Of a stretch of 46,977 bases of DNA, positions 12,813 to 25,413 are shown piece after piece. Location: the NCBI GenBank assembly GCA_030524805.1, contig JAUNFY010000019.1:1-46977 (forward strand), in the 5' to 3' direction. Every line of letters begins with the position of its first letter. Within the stretch, counting starts at the first letter, position 1. The DNA is from Bacteroidales bacterium (GTDB lineage Bacteria > Bacteroidota > Bacteroidia > Bacteroidales > Muribaculaceae). The notes beneath the pieces are model-generated. The model saw nothing but the letters and a program-made list of their open reading frames with translations. It had not been told where the DNA came from and did not search any database. A program made the translations under genes and the position numbers.

Positions 12813-12886
12813 TCGGGGTGAGGCGACTCGAACGCCCGACCTCTACGTCCCGAACGTAGCGCGCTAACCAACTGTGCTACACCCCG
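12813..12886 (-). tRNA. tRNA-Pro (anticodon CGG)
   Basis: Read on the - strand: acceptor CGGGGTG / CACCCCG (7 bp), D arm GCAC..GCGC with GTTGGTTA, anticodon stem CTACG / CGTAG with loop TTCGGGA (anticodon CGG, proline), and T arm GGGCG / CGCCT (imperfect) with TTCGAGT. The discriminator base is A, and the 3' CCA is not encoded (ACA follows). It has its own promoter (12926-12957) and terminator (12771-12799). Confidence 0.95.
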
Positions 12887-22041: not shown

Positions 22042-23370
22042 TCACTGCTTTGCCGGCGCGAAGGCTTCCTTCAGAAGCTCTACCGCATCGAGTTTTTCCC
22101 AGGGGAAAAGCTCCACCTCCACGCTGATGGGGTCGGCCTCATAGCGCGAAGTGAAAGTCTTCACCACCTTGCGGGGCGTGCGGCCCACATGTCCGTAGGC
22201 AGCGGTCTCGAGATAAATCGGCATGCGGAGATTGAAGCGGCGCTCGATGGCGAGCGGGCGCATGTCGAAAAGATTGTTGACCACGTCGGCGATCTGCGCG
22301 TCGGTGAGGTTCACCTTCGAGCGTCCGAACGTGTTGACACAGAGGCTTACAGGCTTTGCCTCGCCGATGGCGTAGGCCACCTGCACGAGTGCCTCCTCGG
22401 TGATGCCGGCAGCCACGAGGTTTTTCGCTATGTGGCGGCAAGCGTAGGCCGCGCTACGGTCTACCTTGGAGGGGTCTTTGCCGGAGAAAGCGCCGCCGCC
22501 GTGGGCGCCGCGTCCGCCGTAGGTGTCGACTATTATCTTGCGTCCGGTGAGGCCGGTGTCGGCATGAGGACCGCCGAGCACGAACTTGCCTGTGGGGTTG
22601 ACATGAAGGATCAGGCGGTCGTCGAAGAGGGCGCGGGTAGATTCGGGCAGTTTGGCGAGCACGCGCGGAATGAGCACGTTCCTGACATCTTCCTTAATCT
22701 TGGCGAGCATCTCGTTCTCCGCCTTTTTCTTAGCCTCTTCGGAATCGTCGGCCGGGACCACAAACTCATCGTGCTGCGTGGATATGACCAGTGTGTGGAT
22801 GCGCAGCGGACGGTTGTCGTCGCCATATTCCACTGTCACCTGGCTCTTCGAGTCGGGGCGCAGATAGGTCACGTCCTTTCCCTTGCGCAGATAGGTCATC
22901 TGCTTCCCTTCGCGACGAATGTCGGCGAGCTCGCTGACAAACTGATGGGCAAGGTCGAGAGTGAGCGGCATGTAGTTTTCGGTCTCATCCACAGCGTAGC
23001 CGAACATCATGCCCTGGTCGCCGGCACCCTGTTCTTCAGGTACCTCGCGGTTCACGCCCTGCGCGATGTCGGGGCTTTGCTCGTGGATGGCGTTGAGGAT
23101 GCCGCAGCTGTCGCCGTCGAAGCGATAGGCGCCGCGGTTGTAGCCGATGTGGTCGATCAGTTTCCTGACCACGTTGTGGATGTCGATATAAGCCTTCGAA
23201 GAGACTTCACCGGCCACCACCACCTGACCGGTAGTGACGAGAGTCTCGATGCCGGTATGGCTCTGGGGGTCGCGGGCGAGGAATTCATCGAGCAGAGCGT
23301 CTGAGATCTGGTCGGATATTTTATCGGGGTGTCCTTCCGACACCGATTCTGATGTAAATAGATACGACAT
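22042..23370 (-). CDS. metK: S-adenosylmethionine synthetase
   Basis: A 442-residue MetK, which makes SAM from methionine and ATP. Family motifs: [12 protein letters not shown] at the start, [12 protein letters not shown], and the glycine-rich P-loop-like [19 protein letters not shown]. The sequence is slightly longer than proteobacterial MetK, with an acidic/charged insert ([15 protein letters not shown]) common in Bacteroidetes. It is alone in its unit, with a 5' leader of about 210 nt containing a predicted SAM-II-type aptamer, which suggests feedback control by its own product, and a terminator right after it. Confidence 0.98.
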
Positions 23371-23434
23371 AAGTATTTGATATTATTAATATTCCAAATT
23401 ATCAGCCGGAAGACTCTCCTGAATGGCGGCGCAC

Positions 23435-23459
23435 AAAAAAAGCACCTTGGGCTTGCGCT
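23435..23459 (-). terminator. Possible intrinsic terminator in the metK leader
   Basis: On the - strand: AGCGC, loop, GTGCT followed by a run of T. A 5-bp stem (one G-U pair) before about seven T residues, located between the aptamer and the metK start. The stem is short, so attenuation by this element is only a suggestion. Confidence 0.4.
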
Positions 23460-23513
23460 CAAAATGCCATACATCATTATTCCCGCCCCCGCATCGGGAG
23501 GCACCGGAATCAT

Positions 23514-23564
23514 GCAGTTTTAGCATTTTTTTGAGTGGTTGCAAGCAGCCAAATTTTTCCACTT
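23514..23564 (-). promoter_or_regulatory. SAM-II-type riboswitch aptamer upstream of metK
   Basis: Read on the - strand, a 51-nt block matches the SAM-II layout: P1 AGUGG (23563-23559) pairing with CCACU (23538-23534); a 20-nt loop containing AUUUGG...CUUGCAA; an A-rich linker CAAAAAAAU; and the conserved 3' GCUAAAA. These are the invariant blocks of the SAM-II class (AUUU, CUUGCA-CCAC, A-rich linker, GCUAAAA). The last pseudoknot pairs (loop GGCUG with 3' CUGC) are imperfect in my hand fold. It lies about 20 nt after the likely transcription start and 143 nt before the metK ATG, a fitting target for SAM feedback. Confidence 0.8.
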
Positions 23565-23589
23565 GGAGAGAGCCGAAGCTTTCACGCCG

Positions 23590-23620
23590 CAAAGTTACAA
23601 AAAAATTTCCATCCCTCCAA
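23590..23620 (-). promoter_or_regulatory. metK promoter
   Basis: On the - strand: TTG (23620-23618), 20 bases, TAACTTTG (23597-23590). This predicts a start near 23583, just upstream of the aptamer. Confidence 0.82.
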
Positions 23621-23942: not shown

Positions 23943-24305
23943 ATGAGAGAAGATACTGCCAATATATTATCAATGATTGATAATTTCACTCTTGAAAGCG
24001 GGGAGGACATTGCCATAGCTATCGCCGACGATTTCCGCAAGCGAAGAATCGAGAAGAATCTGACGCGCGAGATGGTGGCAAACCAGTCGGGTGTGCCTTT
24101 GAGCAACCTGAGCCGTTTCGAGCAAAAGGGACTGATCTCATTGAAAAACCTGATTTCATTGGCGGTTGCATTGGGCTATACCTCCGAAATAAAAGGTATA
24201 TTTTCCCGACCTAAATATTCCACTATGGAGGAATTGACCGCCATCCGCAGGAATGCCGGACGAAAGACCGCTCACCAAAAACGGAAAACAGATGCTAAAG
24301 ATTGA
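23943..24305 (+). CDS. hipB: HipB-type XRE antitoxin / repressor
   Basis: A 120-residue protein with an XRE helix-turn-helix in the middle (FRKRRIEKNLTREMVANQSGVPLSNLSRFEQKG, about residues 33-66), an N-terminal extension of about 30 residues, and a basic, probably disordered tail (RKTAHQKRK). It precedes and overlaps a HipA-type kinase gene by 14 bp, the usual hipBA order. Family role: neutralise HipA and repress the operon. Codons 9-15 contain a 19-bp palindrome (23966-23984) that could be a further operator. Confidence 0.88.
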   Translation: MREDTANILSMIDNFTLESGEDIAIAIADDFRKRRIEKNLTREMVANQSGVPLSNLSRFEQKGLISLKNLISLAVALGYTSEIKGIFSRPKYSTMEELTAIRRNAGRKTAHQKRKTDAKD

Positions 24306-25413
24306 ACTGCTGAATGTAAGATTTCATGGCCAGCCGGTTGGCATTCTCTCATTGACCCCCGACAACAAGCTGTGCGCTTTTGAGTATGACAAGACATGGC
24401 TCCGCACCGGTTTCAGTATTTCCCCACTTGAACTGCCATTGAAGCCCGGACTTTTCATTGCCAAGCCCACCCCGTTTGCCGGCAACTTCGGCATTTTTGA
24501 AGACAGTCTTCCCGACGGCTATGGTCGCTATATGCTCCACAAGGCATTGGCTAATATAGGTATCGACGACCGCAATCTCACAGCACTCGACCGCTTGAGC
24601 ATTGTCGGAGAGTCAGGCATGGGCGCACTGACCTACGACCCGATGACCCCCGTCGGCACAGAAGAGATTATTGGAGATTTCGACATATTGCAAGAGAAAG
24701 CGTTGGCTGTCCTGAAAGAGCAACAGGACTCCGATGCCGGATTGCTTCTATACAACAGCGGTAACAGCGGCGGCGCACGACCCAAAGCCATCTTCTCAGA
24801 CTCAGATGGCCATTGGCTGGTGAAGTTCCGTCATATCTATGACCCCAAAGATATGGGGAAGAGAGAATTTGAATACAATGAAGCCGCCCGCAATGCCGGA
24901 ATAAACGTTCCGGATTTCAAGCTTGTGAATGGCAGATATTTTGCTTCCCGAAGATTCGACATTGATGCCGACGGCAACCGCATACACACGGCAACCGCCG
25001 GAGGATTGCTTTGCATTTCACTTTCCGAACCGGTGCTTGACTACAGTAATCTGCTTGCCCTGACGGGCTTCATGACCCAACTGCCGGAAGATATAGAGGA
25101 GATGTATCGCCGCATGGTGTTCAACTATCTCACCGACAACAAGGATGACCATTGCAAGAATTTCAGTTTCGTGATATTGCCCGGTGCCAACGGCACATGG
25201 AACTGGCGACTGGCTCAAGCCTACGACCTCACCCTCAGCTCGGAAGGATACAACGGAGAACATGCCACATCTGTAAACGGCAAAGGCAATCCCTCTCTCT
25301 CCGATTTCATAGCAGCAGGCACAAAAATAAGGATGAGCAAAGAACGCTGCCTACAGATAATATCAGAGGTTACAGAAGCTTGCAAATCAATACAACGCTA
25401 CGTAATCAAATAG
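24292..25413 (+). CDS. hipA: HipA-type serine/threonine kinase toxin
   Basis: A 373-residue HipA-fold kinase; E. coli HipA phosphorylates glutamyl-tRNA synthetase and halts translation. The ATG at 24292 (MLKIELLNV) is chosen over one at 24253 because it gives the short antitoxin overlap usual for the pair. Visible: N-terminal HipA_N module, the FGIFEDSLPDGYGR segment, GNSGGARPKA (regulatory P-loop region), VKF, catalytic loop TDNKDDHCKNFSF, and metal-binding AYDLTLS. It is shorter than E. coli HipA (440 residues), as in many Bacteroidetes homologues. The target in this organism is unknown. Confidence 0.9.
   Translation: MLKIELLNVRFHGQPVGILSLTPDNKLCAFEYDKTWLRTGFSISPLELPLKPGLFIAKPTPFAGNFGIFEDSLPDGYGRYMLHKALANIGIDDRNLTALDRLSIVGESGMGALTYDPMTPVGTEEIIGDFDILQEKALAVLKEQQDSDAGLLLYNSGNSGGARPKAIFSDSDGHWLVKFRHIYDPKDMGKREFEYNEAARNAGINVPDFKLVNGRYFASRRFDIDADGNRIHTATAGGLLCISLSEPVLDYSNLLALTGFMTQLPEDIEEMYRRMVFNYLTDNKDDHCKNFSFVILPGANGTWNWRLAQAYDLTLSSEGYNGEHATSVNGKGNPSLSDFIAAGTKIRMSKERCLQIISEVTEACKSIQRYVIK

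Follow-up and report, generated by a model that had tools for sequence, protein, structure and literature searches.

The window, meaning the whole stretch of 46,977 nt that was analysed, carries metK on the minus strand (22042..23370), encoding a methionine adenosyltransferase of 442 aa that matched the TIGR01034 equivalog (479.9 bits; cut-off 309.4) and three Pfam SAM synthetase domains. The gene pheT comes after metK. Upstream of metK, on the same strand, lie a predicted intrinsic terminator (23435..23468), a SAM-II (long loop) aptamer (23510..23568) about 140 nt from the metK start, and a promoter (23590..23620). The promoter was composed of TTG (23620-23618), a 20-nt spacer and TAACTTTG (23597-23590), ending 26 nt before the first aptamer helix (P1); this TTG-20 nt-TAnnTTTG type is presumably the Bacteroidetes sigma consensus. 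A simple sigma-70 scan returned nothing at the promoter site. In 109/146 leaders of the window's family, TAnnTTTG lay no more than about 40 nt ahead of P1 (1.7 expected from shuffles), so that the promoter claimed just before the leader by an earlier, sequence-only reading was real in kind. Divergent from metK, two overlapping plus-strand frames at 23943-25413 encode a protein with a helix-turn-helix (PF01381) and a HipA-like one (PF07804, PF13657); they are likely a HipBA-type pair, and no NCBIfam match was found for them.

Scanning the whole window with cmscan placed the RF01726 (SAM-II long loop) model at 23510-23568 of the minus strand (61.9 bits; gathering score 44), over all 60 model positions (1-60) and with E = 1.3e-9 over the whole window. 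Only two Rfam families exceeded their gathering scores in the window, the other being a tRNA at 12813-12886, and no second RF01726 copy was found elsewhere in the assembly. The classical SAM-II model RF00521, which the sequence-only reading had proposed for the search, scored 16.0 bits at the aptamer (gathering score 36), and membership in that family was rejected; the fitting model was RF01726, known from Bacteroidetes and marine samples. The conserved blocks that the same reading had listed were all present on the minus strand: AGUGG (23563-23559) and CCACU (23538-23534), AUUU, CUUGCA, the A-rich linker, and GCUAAAA from 23524. Its claim of a SAM-II-type riboswitch before metK was borne out, with metK as the next gene.

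Aptamer structure was evaluated on 45 aligned aptamers (alignment A2), hand-picked for spread. Paired cells amounted to 89.9% (83.9 in shuffles), cells changed on both sides to 36 (12.3 in shuffles), and the covariation score to 0.174 (0.079 shuffled; best slid version 0.113, with all slid versions lower). None of 500 shuffles, which ignore relatedness, reached any of these three values. Double-change pairs and further pair types showed no excess over shuffles in the 45 aptamers. In P1, formed by AGUGG (23559..23563) and CCACU (23534..23538), 92.9% of cells were paired and 3/5 pairs changed on both sides, with the outer pair varying among A-U, U-A and G-C, and the third pair between U-A and A-U. 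The loop strand of the pseudoknot, GCUG-C-UUGC (23541..23549), contributes to P2a (23549-23546) and to the inner pairs (UUGC, 23544-23541). Its tail strand (23514..23524) begins with GCUAA, paired in 45/45 sequences, followed by CUGC, which forms P2a with one U.U mismatch. The four inner UUGC/GCUAA pairs were invariant. The outer pseudoknot pairs 21-57 and 22-56 changed on both sides in 7 and 4 sequences, respectively. Compensatory variation among aligned relatives, proposed earlier as a check, was thus found both in P1 and in the outer pseudoknot, alongside the RF01726 match.

The outer P2a pairs were G-C or A-U, then C-G or U-A, in the 45 sequences, and the third P2a pair (columns 23 and 55 of A2) was U.A in 15/45 and non-standard in 30/45, the window included. 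Within the window's family almost every loop read GCUGC and most tails AYYGC, which gives a short P2a of two G-C pairs and one G-Y pair, interrupted by a U.Y mismatch. The imperfect pseudoknot suspected from the sequence was therefore real; alternative P2a registers tried by hand gave no better pairing. Since the mismatch recurs across the family, it was not read as decay. That the element might be a chance resemblance or a decayed aptamer is scarcely credible: the mismatch in P2a would fit such an origin, but the mismatch is common to the family, the E value of the window match is low, and the element recurs in nearly every family genome. By sequence and model match, the element in the metK leader is a SAM-II long loop riboswitch, real, apparently intact and ordinary, for which sensing of SAM is predicted.

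The RF01726 element was present in at least 188/198 genomes of the window's family (probably Muribaculaceae; 138/141 good genomes), in at least 197/295 genomes of the order and in at least 45/296 genomes of the phylum sample, these counts being lower bounds because of stricter search filters. The earlier view of Bacteroidetes occurrences as merely some cases needs revision, as the element was nearly universal in the family and common in the order. Loci were examined in 149 of the 188 matching family genomes (13 loci read for the window's genus, of 16 genomes), and metK was next to the aptamer in 146/149; the other three (L127, L147, L173) were unparsed and stand outside all platform counts. 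Among the matches listed, metK lay within 700 nt of the aptamer in 144/150 order-wide and further loci, which partly repeat family genomes; of the six remaining loci, four break off less than 100 nt from the aptamer, one (L220) was unparsed and one (L300) has a metK frame. In the phylum sample metK was parsed in 13/29 loci, and a metK frame was present in 8/8 inspected of the 16 unparsed. As metK adjoins the aptamer across family, order and phylum loci, control of metK by the SAM-II long loop aptamer appears to be the norm in Bacteroidota. In this gut-bacterial family, for which RF01726 is the correct model of the metK leader, a known SAM sensor very probably exerts feedback on metK.

Aptamers L089-L100, from other families (f6 and f3) of the phylum sample, had matches spanning 77-109 nt on the 60-position model and therefore carry an insertion inside the aptamer; metK followed in all five that were read. 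The search pattern also matched three contigs labelled Planctomycetaceae (L302), Lachnospiraceae (L232) and Clostridium (L255), which are probably mislabelled bins.

In the stretch from the aptamer core to metK, two mutually exclusive structures were predicted. A switch strand within the aptamer core, AAAAUGCUA (23521..23529, minus strand), can form nine pairs with an anti-core strand, UGGCAUUUU (23461..23469); the proposed SAM-free antiterminator (23461..23529) would thereby be a G+C-rich inner hairpin closed by a 9-bp helix. The stretch 23532-23461 had a predicted energy of -26.2 kcal/mol (z -3.21; 2/200 shuffles as good). The anti-core can alternatively, as GGCAUUUU, form the 5' arm of the terminator, GGCAUUUUGAGC-GCAA-GCCCAAGGUGCU plus seven U (U run 23441-23435, its first U being the last base of the hairpin). 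The terminator hairpin (23468-23435; -12.9 kcal/mol, z -2.51, 2/200 shuffles as good) was absent from the list of a simple terminator scan. The terminator and the antiterminator overlap in the anti-core. Neither the whole 146-nt leader (z -0.91) nor the aptamer by itself (z -0.48) surpassed shuffles in stability.

Leaders were folded free and with the aptamer held, that is, with P1 enforced and with loop, linker and core barred from other pairing, a constraint that stands in for SAM; eight permuted controls were used per leader. At full length, the predicted terminator probability of the window leader was 0.00 free and 0.97 with the aptamer held. Permuting only the 18-nt linker-and-core stretch raised it to 0.87 (mean of 8), and it is therefore this stretch that blocks the terminator in the prediction. 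The predicted fold of the transcript cut after the anti-core was the antiterminator. In the window alone the anti-core was only marginally unusual (p = 0.05 and 0.07 in two sequence tests). Given the A+U-richness of the stretch, 4 or more pairs with the 5' arm also arose in the cut transcript for 56% of the permuted cores.

These predictions make it probable that the SAM-II long loop riboswitch stops metK at high SAM through early termination of transcription. In the absence of SAM, the pocket strand AAAAUGCUA (23529-23521), made first, would pair with UGGCAUUUU (23469-23461), which would remove the 5' arm of the terminator and let transcription read into metK. With SAM bound, the pocket strand would be locked in the pseudoknot, GGCAUUUU would be freed and the terminator would form, so that the SAM-making enzyme would be lowered by its own product.

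Translational control in the window, with SAM altering access to the metK start as proposed for the metX SAM-II and SAM-V riboswitches, or as in start-sequestering relatives, is unlikely. Relatives lend it some weight: across 36 leaders from nine related genera the start was predicted to be unpaired at 0.39 free vs. 0.16 with the aptamer held, and pairing between element and start was better than in swapped combinations (0/5000 permutations). In the window, however, openness of the metK start was nearly constant (0.34 free vs. 0.38 held), which speaks against a translational switch there, and the start lies 154 nt beyond GCUAAA with the terminator in between.

The AUG in the aptamer core opens a frame of 46 codons (23386..23526, minus strand), in phase with metK and stopping 15 nt before it. 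Control of the terminator through translation of this frame as a leader peptide is very improbable, even though the AUG stands in an A-rich context and was kept in 145/146 family leaders. Frame lengths were close to those of shuffled leaders (mean 32 vs. 28 codons), the 13 frames of the genus ended at differing places with peptides unlike past the first few residues, and conservation of the AUG is explained by its position in the conserved aptamer core. The frame is probably no gene.

Support for termination was then compared among relatives. A terminator hairpin was present in 11/13 leaders of the window's genus, with GGCAU or AGCAU in the 5' arm of 9/11 by eye, and in the cut transcript the core paired with the 5' arm in 8/11 (2.2 expected). 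Switching at equilibrium exceeded 0.5 in 4/11 terminator leaders (L001, L007, L035, L040), and in 7/11 the terminator was already predicted when the aptamer was free. This last result would agree with a terminator acting at all SAM levels, the aptamer working mainly on RNA stability or on translation at a distance, as is reported of Sinorhizobium metA. Excerpts from PMC9373788 give a precedent, a terminator between aptamer and start predicted to be unaffected by SAM. Such an arrangement is nevertheless unlikely for the window, where the pocket strand can pair with the terminator's 5' arm and the terminator is predicted to switch completely. Leaders L301 and L325, the closest of five compared (82% MetK identity to the window), had the same 5' arm and loop as the window, a 3' arm that was changed yet still paired, and an unlike inner hairpin. 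Their terminator was preferred at equilibrium even when free, and the order of transcription (kinetics) must therefore matter in them if SAM-dependent termination is to operate.

Over the 78 terminator leaders of the family, mean predicted terminator probability was 0.41 free, 0.50 with the core permuted and 0.80 with the aptamer held; holding the aptamer raised it by more than 0.5 in 31/78 leaders and lowered it by more than 0.2 in 2/78. Pairs between core and 5' arm in the cut transcript were found in 26/78 leaders (8.5 expected), mostly of genera g1, g9 and g16, and genera g3, g4, g14, g25 and g30 gave little or no support for a core/5' arm switch. The 13 extra close relatives in this pairing test were picked by eye and are no fair sample. 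Complementarity of the core to the 5' arm, relative to shuffled arms, had a mean z of -0.57 (0.06 for the 3' arm; 78 leaders) and reached p ≤ 0.05 in 12/78 leaders for the 5' arm vs. 4/78; genus means were negative in only 8/14 genera. The core's complement was enriched over 131 leaders (mean z -1.21 vs. 0.00 for the reversed core; p ≤ 0.05 in 35/131), most strongly in start-sequestering genera. A terminator was predicted for Muribaculum sp. An289 (L283), and none was found in the leader of Paramuribaculum intestinale. In five Bacteroidales bins, mostly ruminant (L236, L292-L294, L313), a hairpin had, by eye, a 5' arm, UUUUAGCC, complementary to GCUAAAA and a 3' arm, GGGGCUAA, resembling the core.

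Rough rules divided the 146 family leaders into 78 terminator, 35 start-sequestering, 15 direct-start (aptamer and start overlapping) and 18 unclear ones, with 18 of the 78 terminator leaders satisfying the start rule as well. Leaders L017 and L030 were picked up by the hairpin rule but are probably start-sequestering, and within the window's genus L036 owes its start-sequestering label to the rule alone. In nine genera, most leaders carried an element of the type UUAGCAUUUUUCCACU ahead of metK, and the metK start region had the sequence UGGAAAAAUG; possible partners of this element are the pocket strand, the 5' strand of P1 and the metK start. Predicted start openness changed by more than 0.1 in 31/36 leaders with the start element and in 0/36 with shuffled spacers. 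The fit between element and start was -11.1 kcal/mol for own vs. -8.8 kcal/mol for swapped combinations (32 distinct leaders; relatedness kept in the test). The same element occurred in leaders of Prevotella and Leyella stercorea; in L. stercorea DSM 18206 (L231), where no terminator was found, holding the aptamer lowered the predicted openness of the metK start from 0.39 to 0.14. In three leaders of genus g18 (L025, L104, L105) the U run had become UUCAU while the start had become CAAUGAAC. In this compensated variant the partner of the element is not UGGAAAA but the start codon plus codon 2 (UUCAU against AUGAA); among the three, only L104 had a predicted change in start access. In the 15 direct-start leaders (L045, L170, L131, L134, L049, L051, L066 and others; genera g13, g7, g21 and g23) the metK start codon followed the first base of GCUAAA by 7 to 23 nt, without a separate platform, and these leaders were often without the GC of the aptamer tail.

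On a metK tree of 144 leaders (390 columns, short search; 53/141 inner branches open), the three labels needed 13 changes, compared with a shuffled mean of 44. Strongly supported branches forced at least 6 changes for each of the terminator and start-sequestering labels, and only 1 of the 4 changes of the direct-start label. Some of the label changes may be labelling errors. On balance the pattern leans towards a constant aptamer and gene (SAM-II at metK) with a switch type that was replaced repeatedly within one family, the types being terminators whose 5' arm complements the pocket strand, the UUAGCAUUUUUCCA element and direct starts. As part of that reading, and with the same slight preference in its favour, UUAGCAUUUUUCCA would have two alternative partners, the aptamer (its pocket strand or its P1 5' strand, GUGGAAAAA) and a matching UGGAAAAAUG where metK starts; the metK start would thus mimic a strand of the aptamer itself, in a decoy arrangement.

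The riboswitch of the window is itself ordinary, and the added value lies in the computational series of platforms. If true, the series would place the same sensor at the same gene with three switch types over 26 labelled genera, a comparative set and a natural series for how riboswitch output modules (expression platforms) arise, are exchanged and evolve. Term searches among open-licence papers gave no title on SAM-II platforms at metK in Bacteroidota, although the additional files of PMC2864571 may describe the metK link and platforms, and named nothing on repeated platform replacement or a decoy arrangement. For TPP riboswitches in Bacteroides, a title cited in PMC7366714 records one class that acts through transcription as well as translation.

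Among known systems, the nearest is the RF01726 group itself, which excerpts from PMC2864571 list as "SAM-II long loops" for Bacteroidetes and marine samples. The window shares with it the full-length match, P1 and pseudoknot, UUGC, GCUAAA and position in the leader of a SAM gene; the window's family differs in its GCUGC loop and AYYGC tail, where most outside relatives have CUGA and CAG, and in the U.Y mismatch of the outer pseudoknot. With classical SAM-II (RF00521), as far as excerpts from PMC1273637 describe it, the window has in common the architecture, CUUGCA, GCUAAA, a promoter close upstream and putative terminators downstream, and differs in its score of 16 of 36 bits, its short P2a and its placement before metK. 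In Sinorhizobium meliloti metA and metZ, according to the consulted parts of PMC9373788, a terminator likewise lies downstream of the aptamer, that of metZ being SAM-dependent by prediction, and an AUG at the aptamer is followed by a second, in-phase AUG further on. The aptamer there is alphaproteobacterial, whereas in the window the two AUGs are separated by a stop codon 15 nt before metK. Compared with the SAM-V and metX SAM-II structures, as given in part of PMC6061858, equivalents of the pocket residues U19, U20, G21, U47, A48, A49 and A50 were present in the alignment made here, and the inner UUGC/GCUAA pseudoknot would by that comparison hold the pocket residues; the position of A18 is C in the window, the window is without P3, and those riboswitches are translational.
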